A stretch of 64,000 bases of DNA, taken from assembly GCF_900142085.1 (NCBI RefSeq), contig NZ_FQZQ01000003.1:221829-285828 (forward strand), in the 5' to 3' direction. The notes beneath the pieces are model-generated. The model did not search any database, had not been told where the DNA came from, and saw only the letters and a list, made by a program, of their open reading frames with translations. Positions 30,655 through 62,800 of this stretch are shown piece after piece; position 1 is the first letter of the stretch; each line of letters starts with the position of its first letter. Both the position numbers and the translations under genes were made by a program. The DNA comes from Shimia gijangensis (lineage in GTDB: Bacteria; Pseudomonadota; Alphaproteobacteria; Rhodobacterales; Rhodobacteraceae).

Positions 30655-31098
30655 ATGAAAAACCTCAAGAAACGTCGCCGGATACAAGTGATTGTGCTGG
30701 CCTTTGTGGCGCTGGCTGTTTCAACAGCTTTGATTGGCTATGCCATGCAGGACGGGATCAACTTTTTCCGCTCACCCAGTGAAGTGGCCGAAGCCCCACC
30801 TGCGCCCAACGAAACATTCCGCATTGGCGGACTGGTCGAAGAGGGCACATTGGTGCGGGGTGAGGGTGACACGATCAAGTTCAACGTGACCGATGGTGGC
30901 GCGTCTATTCCAGTGACTTTTAAGGGTGTGTTGCCAGACCTGTTCGAGGAAAATCAGGGCATGATTGGCACCGGAAGCTACGTGAATGGCGTGTTTGAGG
31001 CCGACGAAATTCTGGCAAAACACGATGAGACCTATATGCCCAAAGAAGTGGTCGATGCGCTGAAGGAACAAGGCGTGTATCAAGAGCCTGAATCCTAA
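30655..31098 (+). CDS. ccmE: cytochrome c maturation protein CcmE (heme chaperone)
   Basis: 147 aa from ATG 30655 (an in-frame ORF runs further upstream but overlaps argC and lacks homology). Residues ~10-27 form the signal anchor (QVIVLAFVALAVSTALIGYA). FRIGGLVEEGTLVRGEGD and LPDLFEENQGMIGTGSYV follow, then LAKHDETYMPKEVV with the His that binds heme covalently. CcmE carries heme across to the CcmFH lyase in the periplasm. A hairpin terminator follows, before the lysis genes. Confidence 0.95.
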   Translation: MKNLKKRRRIQVIVLAFVALAVSTALIGYAMQDGINFFRSPSEVAEAPPAPNETFRIGGLVEEGTLVRGEGDTIKFNVTDGGASIPVTFKGVLPDLFEENQGMIGTGSYVNGVFEADEILAKHDETYMPKEVVDALKEQGVYQEPES

Positions 31099-31127: not shown

Positions 31128-31150
31128 GACCCGTAGCATGGCTGCGGGCC
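31128..31150 (+). terminator. intrinsic terminator between ccmE and the endolysin gene
   Basis: GACCCGTAGC / GCTGCGGGCC, 10-bp stem with one mismatch and one wobble, 3-base loop, followed by TTTTCCGTTT. It should separate argC-ccmE from the lysis pair. Confidence 0.7.
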
Positions 31151-31189: not shown

Positions 31190-31197
31190 TTAACCAT
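31190..31197 (+). promoter_or_regulatory. CtrA half-site upstream of the lysis cassette
   Basis: TTAACCAT matches the extended half-site of the alphaproteobacterial response regulator CtrA. It lies 43 bases before the endolysin ATG. CtrA is known to be needed for lysis-gene expression in Rhodobacter capsulatus GTA production. Confidence 0.5.
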
Positions 31198-31240: not shown

Positions 31241-31852
31241 ATGAAAGACGTACGGGCAATTGCGCAAGAGATCATCGATCGTGAAGGTGGATATGTGAAC
31301 GATCCGGATGATCCCGGGGGGGTGACAAACCACGGTGTGACGATTCACACGATGCGCCGCTTGGGGCTTGATCTGGATGGCAATGGCAAGATTGACGCAC
31401 GCGATGTGCGCCGTCTTAGCCGGGATCAGGCGGTTGATATCTACCTTAAACACTACTTCGAAACCCCGGGCCTGGCTGAATTGCCAGAGATGCTGCAGGC
31501 GTCAGTGTTTGATATGTATGTCAATGCAGGCAGTAATGCGATCCGCATCCTGCAACAGCTTTTGTGCGACATGAGCTATGCAGTGGATGTGGACAGTGCT
31601 TTGGGACCGCAAACGCTGGCGGCCTGTCAAAGTGCTGCTGAAGATGCGCCGAGTCATCTGGCGGATGCATATGGGATTGCACGGCGTAATTACTATTTCC
31701 GATTGGCAGACAAACGCCCGGCAAGCCGAAAATACGCGCGCACCCGGGCCGGGGGCAAAGGTGGCTGGATCAAACGCGCCGAAGAGTTTATCTCGCCGCG
31801 CTACCACCTGAGCAACGCGGCATTTTCCGAAAGGGTGGCAGCATGGGGATAA
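31241..31852 (+). CDS. GTA-type endolysin (GH108 N-acetylmuramidase family)
   Basis: 203 aa. REGGYVNDPDDPGGVTNHGV (residues ~14-33) is the glycoside hydrolase 108 signature; the first Glu is the presumed catalytic acid. The remainder holds the peptidoglycan-binding module common in this family (MLQASVFDMYVNAGSNAI and DVDSALGPQTLAACQ). No signal peptide is visible, so access to the wall needs the holin encoded immediately downstream. Stop and start overlap by 10 bases. GH108 plus this holin type is the gene-transfer-agent release pair of Rhodobacterales. GAGGTGAG precedes the ATG. Confidence 0.88.
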   Translation: MKDVRAIAQEIIDREGGYVNDPDDPGGVTNHGVTIHTMRRLGLDLDGNGKIDARDVRRLSRDQAVDIYLKHYFETPGLAELPEMLQASVFDMYVNAGSNAIRILQQLLCDMSYAVDVDSALGPQTLAACQSAAEDAPSHLADAYGIARRNYYFRLADKRPASRKYARTRAGGKGGWIKRAEEFISPRYHLSNAAFSERVAAWG

Positions 31853-32358
31853 TTGGGAACCTATTAAACCTGATTTTTGGTGGCGGCCGCAATGTGGTGG
31901 TCGAAACAGCAGGTGCGTTTCTTGAAAATGCCGAGGCAGGTGCTGAGCGTGGCAAAAACGTGCAACTGGCGGCCATGGCAGCGCACAGCGCCGAGTTTTA
32001 TCCCGCCCAGCGTGGCTGGTTTGATCGCGCAATGGATGGCGTGAACCGCCTGCCACGTCCGATGATGGCGTTGGGTTGTCTGGGGCTGGTAATCTCGGCC
32101 ATGGTGAACCCGGTGTGGTTTGCCGAACGCATGGCGGGCATTGCCTTGGTGCCCGAGCCGCTTTGGTGGCTTTTGGGGGGCATTGTCAGTTTCTATTTCG
32201 GCGCGCGTCATCAGGTCAAGGGCCAGGAATTCCAACGCTCCATCGCACATACCATGGGGCAGGTGCCGACTGTGGTTGAAAATCTGCATCGCTTACAAAG
32301 CCTGAGACCCCGTGAAGGCAACCCGGCTCTTTTGGACTGGCGCAAAACACGTGGCTAA
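31843..32358 (+). CDS. GTA-type holin (three transmembrane segments)
   Basis: 171 aa. A Gly-rich start (MGIIGNLLNLIFGGGRN) leads to an amphipathic helix, then PMMALGCLGLVISAMVNPVW and PEPLWWLLGGIVSFYFGARH as clear membrane segments, and a basic tail. This matches the 3TM holin family described for GTA release. Holins open the inner membrane so the endolysin can reach peptidoglycan. The gene begins inside the last codons of the endolysin gene, so translation is coupled. The first hydrophobic segment is weak, so the number of membrane spans needs checking. Confidence 0.85.
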   Translation: MGIIGNLLNLIFGGGRNVVVETAGAFLENAEAGAERGKNVQLAAMAAHSAEFYPAQRGWFDRAMDGVNRLPRPMMALGCLGLVISAMVNPVWFAERMAGIALVPEPLWWLLGGIVSFYFGARHQVKGQEFQRSIAHTMGQVPTVVENLHRLQSLRPREGNPALLDWRKTRG

Positions 32359-32431: not shown

Positions 32432-34405
32432 ATGATTACTGAACTTGGCCACTTTGCCCTGATCCTCGCTGCTTTCACCGCATTGGTGCAGGCAGTCGTT
32501 CCTCTTATTGGTGCCTATAAACGCTGGCCCGGCTGGATGGCCGTGGCGGAACCGGCGGCGGGTATTCAATTCCTTCTGACAGCCTTTTCCTTTGCGGCAT
32601 TGACCTATGCCTTTGTGGTATCGGACTTTTCCGTACGTCTGGTCACGATGAATAGCCATACGATGAAGCCGATGTTGTATAAAATCAGCGGGGTATGGGG
32701 CAACCACGAGGGATCGATGCTGTTGTGGGTGCTGATCCTGACGCTGTTTGGGGCTTGCGCAGCTTGGTTCGGAGGCAACCTACCGCCGACGTTGCGCGCG
32801 CGGGTTCTGTCGGTTCAGGCGGCTGTTGCGGTGGCCTTCTTCGGCTTTATTCTTCTGACATCAAACCCGTTCACGCGATTGGGCACCGCGCCATTTAATG
32901 GCGAAGGTCTGAATCCGTTGTTGCAGGATCCCGGTTTGGCCTTTCACCCGCCGTTTTTGTACCTTGGCTACGTTGGTCTTTCGATGGCGTTTTCCTTCGC
33001 TGTTGCGGCATTGATCGAAGGGCGCATTGATGCCGCTTGGGGGCGTTGGGTGCGACCATGGACGCTGGCGGCTTGGGTCTTTTTGACCTTGGGCATCGCT
33101 CTGGGCTCATGGTGGGCCTATTACGAGCTCGGCTGGGGTGGATTCTGGTTCTGGGACCCGGTTGAAAACGCATCCTTCATGCCGTGGCTTTTGGCGGCAG
33201 CGTTGGTGCATTCGGCAATTGTGGTTGAAAAACGCGAAGCGTTGAAAAGCTGGACTGTCTTATTGGCCATTCTAGCGTTCGGTTTCTCGCTGATCGGAAC
33301 ATTCATTGTGCGTTCGGGCGTCATTACGTCTGTGCACGCATTTGCCAACGATCCCGAACGCGGGGTGTTCATTCTGGCCATTCTGGCGATCTTTATGGGT
33401 GGCGCGTTGATGCTTTTTGCAGCGCGTGCCAGCGCGATGGAGGCCAAGGGTATCTTTGGCATGGTCAGCCGCGAAAGCGCTCTGGTGTTGAACAACATTC
33501 TGCTGGCCGTGGCCTGTTTTGTTGTCTTCATTGGTACCATCTGGCCGCTGGTGTCTGAGATATTCTTTACTCGCAAGCTGAGCGTGGGCGCGCCGTTTTT
33601 CAACATGGCCTTCACGCCCTTTATGGTGGCCCTTGGGGTCATCTTGCCAGTTGGGGCCATGCTGCCCTGGAAACGCGCCAAACTGGTGCGCACGATCAAA
33701 CCTTTGGTGCCTGCTTTTATCCTGGCCCTGGCTTTGGCCGGGCTGGTTTGGGCGATGCAAACCGAGCGGAGCCTTTTGGGTCCCGTTGGCCTGTTCCTTG
33801 GCGCATGGCTGGTGTTTGGCGCGATTGTCGATTTGATGAGCCGCACAGGGCGCGGAAGCTGGGGTAAACGTCTTGGACGTCTGGGCCGGTTGCCGCGTGC
33901 CGACTGGGGCAAAACGCTGGCGCATGCCGGATTTGGGATCACCATGTTTGGGATTGCTGGATTGACAGCCTGGGAGCAGGAAGACATCCGTGTTGCCTAT
34001 AAAGGCCAGCCCTTTACCGTTGGGGCCTATGAGTTGACCCTGGACGATGTTCGTGAAACCCAAGGGCCGAACTATCTGACCACCATGGCGGATGTGACCT
34101 TGCGCAAAGATGGCAACGTGGTTACGTCGCTGCATCCCGAGAAACGCGTTTACCCGGTGGCGTCCATGCCAACAACTGAGGCCGCGATTGATTATCGTAT
34201 CATGCGTGACGTCTATGTGGTGATTGGCGATCCTCAGGCAGACGGTGGTTTCACCATGCGTGTATACATTAAACCGTTCACAAACTGGATCTGGTTTGGC
34301 ACGTTGCTGATGGCCATTGGTGGGGTATTCTCGCTGAGTGATCGGCGGTATCGCGTCGCTGCCGGGGCCCGCAAGGCACCGGTATCCGGAGTACCTGCAG
34401 AATGA
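32432..34405 (+). CDS. ccmF: heme lyase subunit CcmF
   Basis: 657 aa, polytopic. WGGFWFWDPVENASFMPWLL near residue 235 is the tryptophan-rich WWD heme-handling motif. Around 14 hydrophobic segments flank it, with several periplasmic His. The C-terminal periplasmic part precedes a final helix (WIWFGTLLMAIGGVFSL). CcmF takes heme from CcmE and attaches it to apocytochrome c with CcmH. The start at 32432 is supported by family N-termini (MITELGHFALILAAF) and by the promoter just upstream; the ORF extends 12 codons earlier with no support. It overlaps ccmH by 4 bases. Confidence 0.95.
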   Translation: MITELGHFALILAAFTALVQAVVPLIGAYKRWPGWMAVAEPAAGIQFLLTAFSFAALTYAFVVSDFSVRLVTMNSHTMKPMLYKISGVWGNHEGSMLLWVLILTLFGACAAWFGGNLPPTLRARVLSVQAAVAVAFFGFILLTSNPFTRLGTAPFNGEGLNPLLQDPGLAFHPPFLYLGYVGLSMAFSFAVAALIEGRIDAAWGRWVRPWTLAAWVFLTLGIALGSWWAYYELGWGGFWFWDPVENASFMPWLLAAALVHSAIVVEKREALKSWTVLLAILAFGFSLIGTFIVRSGVITSVHAFANDPERGVFILAILAIFMGGALMLFAARASAMEAKGIFGMVSRESALVLNNILLAVACFVVFIGTIWPLVSEIFFTRKLSVGAPFFNMAFTPFMVALGVILPVGAMLPWKRAKLVRTIKPLVPAFILALALAGLVWAMQTERSLLGPVGLFLGAWLVFGAIVDLMSRTGRGSWGKRLGRLGRLPRADWGKTLAHAGFGITMFGIAGLTAWEQEDIRVAYKGQPFTVGAYELTLDDVRETQGPNYLTTMADVTLRKDGNVVTSLHPEKRVYPVASMPTTEAAIDYRIMRDVYVVIGDPQADGGFTMRVYIKPFTNWIWFGTLLMAIGGVFSLSDRRYRVAAGARKAPVSGVPAE

Positions 34406-34857
34406 TTAAACGCCTGTTGATGATCTTGTTGCTGGTTGCTGCGCCGGTTTGGGCGGTGCAACCAGACGAAGTCCTGGACGACCCTGTTTTGGAAGAACGT
34501 GCGCGTGAGGTCTCTAAAGACCTGCGGTGTCTGGTTTGTCGGAACGAAAGCATCGACGAATCTAACGCGGATTTGGCCCGGGAGCTGCGCATATTGGTGC
34601 GTGAACGACTGGTAGCTGGAGACAGCAATTCCGAGGCGATCGCCTATATCGTGGACCGTTATGGCGAGTATGTGTTGCTGCGACCTCAACGTACGGGATC
34701 GAACCTTTTGCTGTGGCTGGCTGGGCCGGTCATGTTGCTAATCGCTCTGGCCATGGCGCTGGTCTATCTGAGGCGCCGATCCGTCGCCCCGGTGGCAGTT
34801 GAACAAGGCCTCAGCGACGAAGAAAAGACGCGCCTGAGTAAGATTCTCGACGAATGA
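34402..34857 (+). CDS. ccmH: cytochrome c maturation protein CcmH
   Basis: 151 aa. A signal peptide (residues 1-19) precedes the periplasmic domain with LRCLVCRNESIDES near residue 50, the LRCxxC pair that reduces or holds the apocytochrome. A hydrophobic helix (NLLLWLAGPVMLLIALAMAL) follows, then a short tail. It starts by ATGA overlap with ccmF, so it depends on ccmF for translation. CcmI, CcmG and CcmABCD are not in this window. Confidence 0.94.
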   Translation: MIKRLLMILLLVAAPVWAVQPDEVLDDPVLEERAREVSKDLRCLVCRNESIDESNADLARELRILVRERLVAGDSNSEAIAYIVDRYGEYVLLRPQRTGSNLLLWLAGPVMLLIALAMALVYLRRRSVAPVAVEQGLSDEEKTRLSKILDE

Positions 34858-34882: not shown

Positions 34883-34897
34883 TTAACAGTGCTTAAC
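34883..34897. repeat. TTAAC direct repeat, one helical turn apart
   Basis: TTAAC (34883-34887) and TTAAC (34893-34897), start-to-start 10 bases, 31 bases before the next ATG. The same arrangement occurs at 59346-59360. The spacing is one base shorter than a full CtrA site. Confidence 0.4.
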
Positions 34898-34928: not shown

Positions 34929-35705
34929 ATGGATTATCAGACAATCACTTACGACGTTACTGACGGCATGGCAGTTATCACGCTGAACAGGCCCGACGTG
35001 ATGAATGCTCTGACCGCGCAGATGCGCGCTGAGATTACCCATTCGGTGCTTGAGGCTGGGAAGTCTGCCCGGGTGGTCGTTCTGACCGGTGCTGGCCGGG
35101 CATTTTGCTCGGGTCAGGATCTGGGTGACAATGGTAGTGCGGCCACGATGGACCTGGAACGTGGGCTGCGTGATGAGTACACGCCGATGATCCGCGCCAT
35201 AACGGATTGCCGTGTACCGGTGATTGCCGCCGTCAACGGTGCGGCTGCGGGGGCAGGGGCCAACCTTGCACTGGCCGCGGATGTGGTGATAGCCGCCGAG
35301 AGCGCCTTTTTCATGCAGGCGTTTTCTAAAATTGGCCTGATCCCGGATGCGGGCGGCACTTATGTGTTGCCGCGCCTTGTGGGAACAGCTCGTGCGATGG
35401 GGGCCTCATTGTTTGCCGAAAAGATCGACGCCCGTACGGCTGAGCGCTGGGGCATGATTTGGGAAGCGGCGGCAGATGACGCCTTTGAGGACACCTGGAA
35501 AGCCCGTGCGCGCCATCTGGCGGAAGGACCCACCCAAGCCTACCGCCGGATCAAGCAAGCACTGCAAGCCTCAACCGCAAATGAACTGGACACCCAGTTG
35601 ACTCTGGAAGCCAAGCTGCAGGGGAAATGCGGTAAAACCCGCGACTTTCAAGAAGGTGTAGTCGCGTTTCTGGACAAGCGCCCCGCGACATTCGAGGGGC
35701 GCTGA
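34929..35705 (+). CDS. enoyl-CoA hydratase/isomerase, PaaG-like
   Basis: 258 aa crotonase. VITLNRPDVMNALTAQM near residue 17, GRAFCSGQDLGDNG near residue 56 (oxyanion loop), AAVNGAAAGAGANLALAAD and KIGLIPDAGGTYVLPRLVG near residue 136 are conserved. FCSGQDLGD and the tail KRPATFEGR match the phenylacetate-pathway ring isomerase group. No other paa genes are present, so PaaG function is an inference; a general hydratase is the alternative. GCGGAGAG precedes the ATG. Confidence 0.85.
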   Translation: MDYQTITYDVTDGMAVITLNRPDVMNALTAQMRAEITHSVLEAGKSARVVVLTGAGRAFCSGQDLGDNGSAATMDLERGLRDEYTPMIRAITDCRVPVIAAVNGAAAGAGANLALAADVVIAAESAFFMQAFSKIGLIPDAGGTYVLPRLVGTARAMGASLFAEKIDARTAERWGMIWEAAADDAFEDTWKARARHLAEGPTQAYRRIKQALQASTANELDTQLTLEAKLQGKCGKTRDFQEGVVAFLDKRPATFEGR

Positions 35706-35715
35706 ACCGGCACGT

Positions 35716-36516
35716 TTATGCCTGAAGCAACACGATGTTGTTGGCATTGAGACTTGGACCGGCATTGATAACCACGATCACCTCATTGCCATCAGCGTAG
35801 ACAGTCGCGTCACCCGTAGTCGCGTTCACATCAGTAGTGATCGCGGGCTCGGTTGAACCTTGGTATGTGTAGGTCAGAAGGTCTTCTGCTTCGTCATAAT
35901 CTTCAACAATGGCTGGTTCGCCATCTCGAATCCACCAACCGCCGGCAAAGAGATCTGCGCCATCCCCTCCAGTGACCGAGTCTTCGCTGCCCATGGTGAT
36001 AAGATCATCACCAGCACCAGCGTCGATGTCGTCACCTTGGTCCGTGTCTTCCGCGTCGTTGAATTCAAACACGATATCACCCACAGATTCGGCCGTCTGA
36101 GCCGAGGCAATCAAAACGTCCTCGTTCAACTGCGATGTTCCGTCGATAATGTCGTCGCCACTGCGGCCTTCAATGGTATCCTGACCGTCGCCACCAAATA
36201 GCGCGTCATCACCGTCACCACCGATCAGAAGGTCGTTATCTTCATTGCCGAGCAAAAGATCGTCGTCGTCACCGCCACGCAAGCTATCGTTGCCTTCTTC
36301 ACCGATCAGGATGTCAACGCCCTCGCCACCAGACAGGCTGTCATCGCCTTCAAGACCTTGAAGCAGATCTATTGCGCCTTCACCCAAGGCAACCTCTTCG
36401 GTTACAACTTCTTCTTCCGCCGATGAACTTTTGTCGTCGTCGTCGTCGTCATTGATTACCTCATCAATGACCCATACCCAGAATACGACACCCAAAATAC
36501 TAAGAGCAGCAATCAT
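35716..36516 (-). CDS. membrane-anchored RTX (hemolysin-type calcium-binding) repeat protein
   Basis: 266 aa from ATG 36516 (AAAAGGGG upstream). Residues 2-24 form an N-terminal membrane anchor (IAALSILGVVFWVWVIDEVI), followed by a run of six Asp and a Ser/Glu-rich linker. Residues ~50-110 hold about seven RTX nonapeptide-like repeats (GGDGDDALF, GGEGVDILI, GGDDDDLLL). A second Asp/Gly patch lies near 160-185 before a beta-rich C-terminus. RTX repeats fold on binding calcium. The anchor at the N-terminus is unusual, since RTX proteins are normally secreted by a C-terminal signal. No type I transporter gene is near. Confidence 0.75.
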   Translation of the reverse strand: MIAALSILGVVFWVWVIDEVINDDDDDDKSSSAEEEVVTEEVALGEGAIDLLQGLEGDDSLSGGEGVDILIGEEGNDSLRGGDDDDLLLGNEDNDLLIGGDGDDALFGGDGQDTIEGRSGDDIIDGTSQLNEDVLIASAQTAESVGDIVFEFNDAEDTDQGDDIDAGAGDDLITMGSEDSVTGGDGADLFAGGWWIRDGEPAIVEDYDEAEDLLTYTYQGSTEPAITTDVNATTGDATVYADGNEVIVVINAGPSLNANNIVLLQA

Positions 36517-36657
36517 GACAAAACCCCTTTTGCCTAAATATTGCCACAAAGCTGCTGGGAATTGGTCAAAAAGTCAATAATTTCAGCATATTGTTCATGA
36601 CCCGTTAACAATTGCCCTTCTTCCGTCGGACTGGTGACGAATTGGCACGAAAAAACA

Positions 36658-59345: not shown

Positions 59346-59360
59346 TTAACGTTTCTTAAC
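59346..59360. repeat. TTAAC direct repeat upstream of nrdJ
   Basis: TTAAC GTTTC TTAAC, start-to-start 10 bases, the same geometry as at 34883-34897. Confidence 0.4.
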
Positions 59361-59817: not shown

Positions 59818-62800
59818 ATGAGAATTGAACGAAAATTTACCAAATCCGGGCAGGACGCGTACGCAGAGCTGAACTTTGTGACCACCGAATCCGAAATTCG
59901 CAATCCGGACGGCACCATCGTATTCAGTCTTGAGAATGTCGAAGTGCCGTCCAGCTGGAGCCAGGTTGCCAGCGACGTGATCGCACAGAAGTATTTTCGC
60001 AAAGCTGGTGTTCCGTCAAAGCTGAAGCGCGTGAAGGAGAAAGGTGTTCCTGAATTCCTGTGGCGCTCGGTCCCGGCAGAGGGTGCCGAGATTGGCGGCG
60101 AAACATCGTCAAAGCAAGTGTTCGACCGTCTAGCAGGTGCGTGGACTTATTGGGGCTGGAAGGGCGGGTACTTCTCGTCCGAAGCAGATGCCCAAGCCTA
60201 TTTTGACGAAATGCGCTTTATGTTGGCCTCGCAACGCGCGGCACCAAATAGCCCGCAGTGGTTCAACACCGGCCTGCACTGGGCTTATGGCATCGATGGC
60301 CCCGCGCAAGGGCACTATTATGTCGACCATAAATCCAAAAAGTTGACCAAATCAAAATCCAGCTACGAACACCCGCAACCGCACGCCTGCTTTATCCAGT
60401 CGGTCAGCGATGACCTTGTGGGCGAGGGCGGCATCATGGACCTATGGGTCCGCGAAGCACGTCTGTTTAAATATGGCTCGGGCACCGGCACCAACTTTTC
60501 GTCTTTGCGTGCAGATGGCGAGTCGCTCTCGGGCGGTGGCAAGTCTTCGGGCCTGATGGGCTTCCTGAAAATTGGCGACCGCGCCGCTGGTGCGATCAAG
60601 TCGGGTGGCACAACCCGTCGTGCGGCCAAAATGGTGATTGTTGATGCTGATCACCCGGATGTCGAAGAGTACATCAACTGGAAGGTCAAAGAGGAACAAA
60701 AGGTTGCCTCCATCGTGGCTGGCTCCAAGATGCACGAGCAAAAGCTGAACGGCATCTTTGCTGCAATCAAAGCTTGGGACGGTGCTGAAGCAGATGCTTA
60801 TGACCCCAAGGTCAATGAGACTCTGAAATCAGCGATCCGCGATGCCAAGAGCGTCATGATCCCTGAGACTTACATAAAACGTGTGCTGGATTATGCCAAA
60901 CAGGGTTATGCCAGCATTGAGTTCCCGACCTATGACACTGATTGGGATTCCGAGGCCTATGCCTCTGTTTCAGGACAGAACTCGAACAACTCAATCCGCG
61001 TAACGGACGCTTTCCTGAAAGCCGTCAAGGACGACGCCGATTGGGAACTGATCCGCCGCACCGATGGCTCGGTAGCTAAAACCATCAAAGCACGTGATCT
61101 TTGGGAAAACGTTGGCCACGCCGCTTGGGCCTGCGCCGATCCCGGCATTCAGTACCACGACACTGTGAATGCGTGGCACACGTGTCCCGAAGATGGTGAG
61201 ATCCGCGGATCGAACCCATGCTCCGAATACATGTTCCTAGACGACACGGCCTGTAATCTCGCGTCTATGAACCTGCTGACCTTCCTTAAGGACGGTGTGT
61301 TCCAAGCCGAAGACTACATCCATGCCACCCGTCTGTGGACCGTGACGCTGGAAATCTCGGTGATGATGGCGCAATTCCCATCCAAAGAGATTGCGCAACT
61401 GTCGTATGACTTCCGCACATTGGGTCTGGGCTATGCTAACATCGGCGGCCTGCTGATGAACATGGGCTTTAGCTACGACTCGGACGAGGGGCGGGCGCTG
61501 ACTGGTGCACTGACTGCGATCATGACCGGCGTATCCTATGCCACATCGGCTGAAATAGCAGGTGAGTTGGGTGCATTTGACGGATACGAGCGCAACAGCG
61601 AGCATATGCTACGTGTGATCCGTAACCACCGCCGTGCATCTTACGGCGAAAGCGAAGGTTACGAAGGTCTGGCGATTAAGCCGGTTGAATTGGACATGGA
61701 CAACTGTCCAGACCAGAAACTGGTTGCTCTGGCGCAATCCGCTTGGGACGAAGCGCTGAAACTTGGCCAAAAGAACGGCTATCGCAACGCACAGGTCTCG
61801 GTGATTGCCCCAACCGGCACCATCGGTCTGGTGATGGACTGCGACACCACCGGTATTGAGCCTGACTTTGCGCTGGTAAAATTCAAAAAGCTGGCAGGCG
61901 GAGGATACTTTAAGATCATCAACCGCTCGGTGCCGGCTGCTCTGGAAAAACTGGGCTATGGCTCGGCGCAGATTGAAGAGATCGTTTCTTACGCAGTTGG
62001 CCACGGTTCACTGGGCAATGCGCCCGGCATCAACCATACCTCGCTGGTCGGTCACGGCTTTGGTCAAAACGAATTGGACAAAATCGAAGCCTCGCTGGCC
62101 TCGGCCTTTGACATCCGTTTCGTGTTCAACCAATGGACTTTGGGTGAAGCGTTCTGCACCAATGTACTGGGCATCCCTGCGGCCAAGCTGAACGATCCGT
62201 CGTTTGATCTGCTGTCGCACCTTGGCTTTACCCGTAAGGACATTGAGGCTGCCAACGACCATGTGTGCGGTACGATGACCCTTGAAGGTGCGCCGTTCCT
62301 CAAAGAAGAGCACTATGAGATATTTGATTGCGCCAACCCTTGTGGCAAAAAAGGTAAGCGTTACCTGAATGTCGACAGCCATATCACCATGATGGCCGCA
62401 GCGCAGTCGTTCATCTCTGGTGCGATCTCAAAGACCATCAACATGCCAAACGATGCCACTATCGAAGACTGTCAGAAAGCCTATGAGCTCAGCTGGTCTT
62501 TGGGCATCAAAGCCAACGCGCTGTACCGCGATGGATCAAAACTTTCACAGCCTCTGGCAGCTGCCCTGGTCGAAGATGACGAGGATGCCGCAGAAGTTCT
62601 GGAAAGCGGAAACGCCCACGAAAAGGCGACCGTTCTGGCGGAAAAGATCATTGAAAAAGTGATTGTCAAAGAGATTGTTAAATCTCACCGTGAAAAAATG
62701 CCGGAACGCCGCAAGGGCTATACTCAAAAAGCCGTTGTTGGGGGCCACAAAGTCTACTTGCGCACCGGTGAGTACGAAGACGGCAACCTTGGTGAGATTT

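Follow-up and report, generated by a model that had tools for sequence, protein, structure and literature searches.

A pair of phage-type lysis genes stands between cytochrome c maturation (ccm) genes of Shimia gijangensis, within the 64-kb stretch of DNA analysed here (the window). What is a lysis cassette doing at this address, and what switches it on? The first gene (31241..31852, + strand) encodes a GH108 endolysin (N-acetylmuramidase) of 203 aa with a PG_binding_3 domain. The second (31843..32358, + strand) encodes a 171 aa holin of the GTA_holin_3TM family, and by the ORF coordinates its start overlaps the endolysin end by 10 bp. Upstream is ccmE (30655..31098, + strand; Pfam CcmE 4.1e-31 and the NCBIfam CcmE equivalog), preceded by argC. 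Downstream, 73 bp past the holin, is ccmF (32432..34405, + strand; Pfam CcmF_C 3.8e-116), followed by ccmH (34402..34857, + strand; Pfam CcmH 3.1e-47). The nearest genes are thus argC, ccmE, ccmF, and ccmH, with no phage gene adjoining the pair.

The family assignments are clear. The endolysin matches Pfam Glyco_hydro_108 (E 2.4e-26), PG_binding_3 (6.7e-23), and NCBIfam NF040573, "holin-associated N-acetylmuramidase" (355 bits against a cut-off of 240), and the holin matches PF11351, GTA_holin_3TM (E 1.4e-27, 97 bits against a cut-off of 24.8); the holin protein has no match in PHROG. A search of the genome gives a single match each for PF05838 and PF11351. The ORFs and the Pfam and NCBIfam matches bear out the earlier note, which had described a GH108 endolysin and a gene transfer agent (GTA)-type holin overlapping by 10 bases and standing alone between ccmE and ccmF. 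The note had also spoken of a three-segment holin; the family is right, but the hydropathy profile has two distinct membrane-spanning stretches and not three (19-residue windows that begin at residues 70-77 and 97-100), and "3TM" is the family's name. Glu15 of the endolysin, which we take to be the catalytic residue, lies within a stretch (R-E-G-G) that is invariant. No signal sequence is visible by eye in the endolysin. The holin would permeabilise the inner membrane, and the endolysin would reach the wall through the membrane so opened. Spanin genes are also usual in Gram-negative lysis.

The genome contains an RcGTA-type head-tail cluster on the same contig as the window (C67:173320-186803), and the endolysin gene starts at C67:253069, about 66 kb away. 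The cluster families include the large terminase, portal, capsid, connector, head completion protein, DUF2460, the g13 baseplate hub, a g14 NlpC/P60 peptidase, and a 1306-aa g15 with a GTA_TIM domain. Our scan of the cluster covered ten ORFs (the small terminase and the protease fall outside it), and one ORF, at L004:11720, has no family match. There is a single DUF6456 (GafA-type) gene in the genome, on contig C48; relatives of GafA are described as carrying the DUF6456 annotation (PMC9638019). Absence of a structural cluster, which the earlier note had named as evidence against its proposal, therefore does not apply, and the pair lies apart from the main cluster as the note had said it does in Rhodobacter capsulatus. 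With the head-tail cluster and the DUF6456 gene both present, the GTA reading holds, and the organism has, as judged from its genes, the main parts for GTA production.

We compared the locus across 149 genomes drawn at order level, every one of which is listed in the window's own family. NF040573 is present in 144 of these (over the cut-off in 143), with ccmE within 1.5 kb upstream of the endolysin gene in 127 and ccmF within 3 kb downstream in 112. Both neighbours flank the endolysin in 101/144 genomes, at least one does in 138/144, and neither in 6/144. The gap from ccmE to the endolysin has a median of 86 bp, with both genes on the same strand. Left out of the 144 are second endolysin copies in G038 and G072, filler regions (L311 and L314), and extended duplicates (L312, L313, and L315). 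Three of the six genomes with neither neighbour (G015, G019, and G114) were judged on a 1.5 kb flank only, and G114 still has no ccm neighbour when the flank is widened to 10 kb; G072 was counted as having no ccmF owing to a short flank, and the gene is present in a longer stretch (L312). Among named contig loci (the best 80 of at least 541 relatives), both ccm neighbours are found in 51/80, at least one in 75/80, and neither in 5/80. Four loci from the family (L205 in G096, L260 in G008, L264 in G142, and L289 in G059) have no ccmF or ccmH match in the stretch examined, and the next match past the holin is a hydratase-like gene.

The endolysin is absent from five of the 149 genomes. One of these, G145 (L319), has an empty site in which argC and ccmE are followed about 190 bp on by ccmF with no lysis pair, and its congener G097 has the cassette. 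In a class-level sample of 192 genomes, five are over the NF040573 cut-off, three from this family and two from another; the two also have the holin, but no ccm match was found within the 1.5 kb examined. The ccm placement, which the earlier note had found striking in one genome, is therefore a trait of the whole family. We found no paper on the ccm position of GTA lysis genes by title or abstract, which is weak evidence of absence as most of the subscription literature lies outside that search.

The cassette appears to have its own promoter. The window has TTAACCAT at 31190..31197 (+ strand), starting 51 bp before the endolysin ATG, which we predict by motif and comparison to be a CtrA half-site at the -35 position of a promoter belonging to the cassette. 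It is the sole exact copy in the 64-kb window, but 1.17 copies are expected by chance, so the lone match proves little, and it is the comparison with relatives that makes the case strong. We set the endolysin start codons of the relatives by aligning them to the endolysin of the window; on that basis, 116/144 genomes have TTAAC in the 120 bp before the gene (28/144 are without an exact TTAAC). The same motif is rare upstream of ccmE (4/127), ccmF (2/112), argC (1/85), ech (2/90), and viral copies of the endolysin (1/58). The TTAA core falls at -65 to -40 of the endolysin in 124/144 genomes, against 2-4% for the neighbours (ccmE 2/127, ccmF 3/112, argC 3/85, and ech 2/90). Aligning on this core gives TTAACC as the consensus, followed by a common A at +16 (69%) and a common T at +20 (86%), and a second half-site at full-site spacing is rare (3/124). 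We read this as a half-site in the -35 place. TTAAC is presumably a CtrA half-site, and from this motif, together with the R. capsulatus lysis promoter, we infer that the element is a CtrA site. The CtrA half-site expected in the promoter of an RcGTA-type lysis pair is thus found here as a motif.

Could read-through from ccmE instead make lysis follow the state of the ccm operon? The genes share a strand with the short gaps given above, and the gap in the window has a terminator-like hairpin with a T-rich tail after ccmE (31130..31148, + strand) that only a minority of relatives share. By a relaxed rule such a hairpin occurs in the ccmE-endolysin gaps of 22/126 relatives (4.1 in shuffles). The element is also common by chance, with 8 sites of its class on both strands of 4 kb and 5.5 expected. 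We considered whether a terminator insulates the cassette from ccmE throughout the family, and rejected this on the relaxed count and on a strict rule that gives 2/126 (0.2 in shuffles). Coupling to the ccm genes is nevertheless very improbable in our view. The conserved half-site is specific to the cassette, and we found ccmF but no ccmE beside the cassette in 11 genomes and ccmE but no ccmF in 23. Either neighbour can be missing, so the ccm address is tolerant and neither neighbour is needed. Thus, while the proteins, the position apart from the head-tail genes, and the RcGTA-type cluster uphold the earlier reading of a GTA lysis pair, the suggested tie between GTA release and the state of the ccm locus is not supported, given the cassette-specific half-site and the family-wide position. 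Terminator prediction in the window gave nothing on the + strand from the holin to ccmF, so ccmF and ccmH may be read from the predicted lysis promoter.

Other features of the window were recorded beside these. A CtrA-like full site (TTAAC-N5-TTAAC) is at 34883-34897, between ccmH and an ORF at 34929 that reads by eye like an enoyl-CoA hydratase; TTAAC upstream of this gene is rare in relatives (2/90). The same arrangement is at 59346-59360; the ORF lying about 460 bp further downstream (at 59818, 1221 aa) looks by eye like a ribonucleotide reductase. At 35716-36549 (- strand) is an acidic ORF with repeated GGDGDD-type motifs that, by eye, resemble RTX calcium-binding repeats.

The two families also occur in phages. 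Viral contigs often carry prophage versions of the pair, with an endolysin that is 55-72% identical, and 79 of 80 viral loci (L036-L115) have both genes in the same order. No ccm neighbours were found in these 80 loci, and a homologue of any gene of the window's own GTA cluster occurs, within the stretch examined, in 2/80. (The upstream comparison above used the 58 viral loci that remain after dropping identical copies and those with too short an upstream sequence.) In a tree of endolysins (124 of 207 distinct rows, with the ccm rows thinned) phage and chromosomal copies interleave, with 13 label changes and a poorly resolved backbone, and on these grounds we rejected a single chromosomal clade apart from the phage copies. 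The phage relatives and the mixed tree suggest that copies of the lysis genes have moved between phages and chromosomes, and they speak against families that are specific to GTAs. An ordinary prophage lineage, the contrary outcome that the earlier note had foreseen for a family search, is therefore excluded only in part.

These viral relatives, found mostly with no homologue of the GTA cluster, and the mixing in the tree are what one would expect if the pair were an ordinary prophage remnant, the trace of a phage insertion at the ccmE-ccmF interval, with no present role. Against it are the four nearest genes, the presence of ccmE and/or ccmF beside the pair in nearly all of the 144 genomes, and the near absence of the half-site from viral copies. 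The endolysin dN/dS to nearest neighbours is also low, with medians of 0.130 in genomes with DUF2460 (n=106) and 0.075 in GTA-free ones (n=12). We judge a remnant to have only a slim chance of being right, and return to the cassette as a GTA lysis pair under host control.

The surprising result is that the cassette is kept in genomes without GTA markers. DUF2460 is missing from 20/149 genomes. Of these, 17 also have a defect in GTA_TIM, with no trace of the domain found in 6 and a match to its last third alone in 11; in the remaining three (G020, G138, and G145) GTA_TIM is present, and two of the three keep the endolysin. We used the window's own GTA capsid as a query against the 17 genomes and three GTA-positive controls. 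Capsid identity was 70-78% in the controls and 74% in G091, and only distant matches were found in G110 (37%) and G078 (30-31%). Leaving out G091, 16 genomes from 13 genera have no intact cluster by the three markers (DUF2460, GTA_TIM, and capsid). The endolysin and holin, with ccmE and/or ccmF adjoining, are present in 15 of the 16 (12 of the 13 genera); G110 has neither an intact cluster nor the cassette. Fourteen of the 15 carriers have TTAAC within 120 bp and all 15 have the TTAA core between -65 and -40. A full 203-aa endolysin reading frame is present in 14 of the 15, while that of G079 is shortened to 189 aa. The DUF6456 gene is kept in 16/16. Among genomes with DUF2460, the endolysin is kept in 126/129 (absent in G013, G081, and G141), so by comparison with 15/16 (Fisher p 0.38) cassette loss does not detectably follow GTA loss.

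Measured against nearest neighbours, dN/dS is not raised in GTA-free genomes for either gene. The holin shifts like the endolysin, with medians of 0.093 in GTA-free genomes (n=11) and 0.165 in those with DUF2460 (n=91), but a like shift is seen in ccmE and ccmF, and the values also span the time before the loss. The dN/dS values are therefore no proof of selection after GTA loss.

Retention counts against GTA release as the sole use of the cassette. Since genomes without the tested GTA genes still carry the cassette and its half-site, these may be a property of the host with a use beyond GTA release. In its strongest form, which overlaps with our preferred explanation and goes further, the cassette would be a host-owned, CtrA-wired module for programmed lysis at the ccm locus that GTAs borrow and that outlives them, with a use of its own such as releasing DNA, vesicles, or nutrients in stationary phase. 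The near-complete retention across genera, mostly with an exact half-site, at a rate not detectably below that of genomes with DUF2460, and the constant presence of the DUF6456 gene are in its favour. However, the GTA losses may be recent, as in several cases there are close relatives with intact clusters (G111/G127, G007 and G079/G069). The shortened endolysin of G079 and the lack of a cassette in G110 also weigh against it, and the R. capsulatus pair is reported to be co-expressed with GTA genes (PMC4158056). We hold this stronger form to be a tentative alternative. The retention means either that GTA loss is recent or that controlled lysis is worthwhile in itself, and we are doubtful of the second.

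The losses themselves have an unusual form. Eleven of the 16 genomes have a deletion that joins TerL residues 1-106 to a g15 part which starts at about residue 644-658 and reaches almost to the g15 C-terminus (loci L345-L355, in G007, G078, G002, G074, G079, G027, G009, G082, G110, G111, and G102). The fusion is in frame in 9/11; the frame is broken in G002 and G102, in the latter right at the junction. The junction consists of the TerL Walker B motif (...DE) followed by xGC of g15, and is identical in ten genomes of 8 genera. Among the best 120 of 5258 public relatives of one fusion, 63 are fusions and all 63 have the same junction, so the junction does not stem from our choice of genomes. 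Of nine pairs compared, seven have matching flanks that share 2-8 bases at the junction, and in the other two there is no overlap.

We built a tree from the g15 portion of 21 intact and 11 fused rows. Each fusion with sampled congeners groups there with its own genus, and the starred branches require the fusion to have been gained or lost at least ten times. Just past the junction, the first residue agrees with intact congeners in genera g2, g7, g21, and g33, and with the nearest congener (G127) in genus g3, with no match in genus g25. Horizontal spread of one deletion allele fits badly with the number of gains or losses and with a 3' codon that is mostly as in the intact congeners. Long-shared alleles combined with very close gene conversion are another possibility. 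A predicted structure of the fusion has a mean pLDDT of 66, a pTM of 0.41, and values below 50 for residues 173-294 (around and after the junction), and these confidence scores give no support to a new folded domain. No paper on the fusion was found by title; most of the subscription literature is outside such a search, which makes this weak evidence of absence.

Taken together, the endolysin-holin cassette likely opens the few cells that make GTA, by a predicted CtrA switch at its own promoter and not through the cytochrome genes. Most likely it belongs to a known kind, the GTA lysis cassette, and is controlled by the host, and it may also serve lysis in its own right. Phosphorylated CtrA, with GafA, would activate the promoter at the predicted half-site. 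This fixes the genomic address and the likely control of the producer-killing step of GTA across a bacterial family. Cassettes in genomes with no intact cluster make it testable whether lysis of the producer pays only through gene transfer or by itself. If the latter is true, lineages that delete the particle genes keep the switch, the promoter, and the GafA-type gene, and controlled self-lysis is of benefit by itself.

Several known systems resemble this cassette. The same two families in the same gene order are found in the prophage pairs of viral contigs, but these differ in their surroundings, with no ccm neighbours found, and in the all but missing TTAAC upstream. There is also a likeness, drawn from published descriptions, to rcc00555/rcc00556 of R. 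capsulatus, an endolysin-holin pair that is likewise apart from the head-tail cluster (PMC6854486, PMC9638019, PMC6363796). Disruption of rcc00555 lowers gene transfer, a result attributed to Hynes et al. 2012 (PMC3423380). The rcc00555/6 promoter is described as having putative CtrA half-sites (PMC9638019), with which our CtrA reading of TTAA/TTAAC fits. The R. capsulatus lysis promoter is reported to be bound by GafA, and induction of the endolysin to need CtrA (PMC6363796). Dinoroseobacter shibae Dshi_1756/1757, again likened by description, is named as an endolysin/holin system involved in GTA release and induced by quorum sensing (PMC6473078). In Caulobacter GTA is also released by lysis of the host cell, there via LypABC; the authors report finding no holin-endolysin homologues and describe a CARD-NLR-like system instead (PMC13236601), unlike the endolysin-holin cassette at the ccm locus described here.
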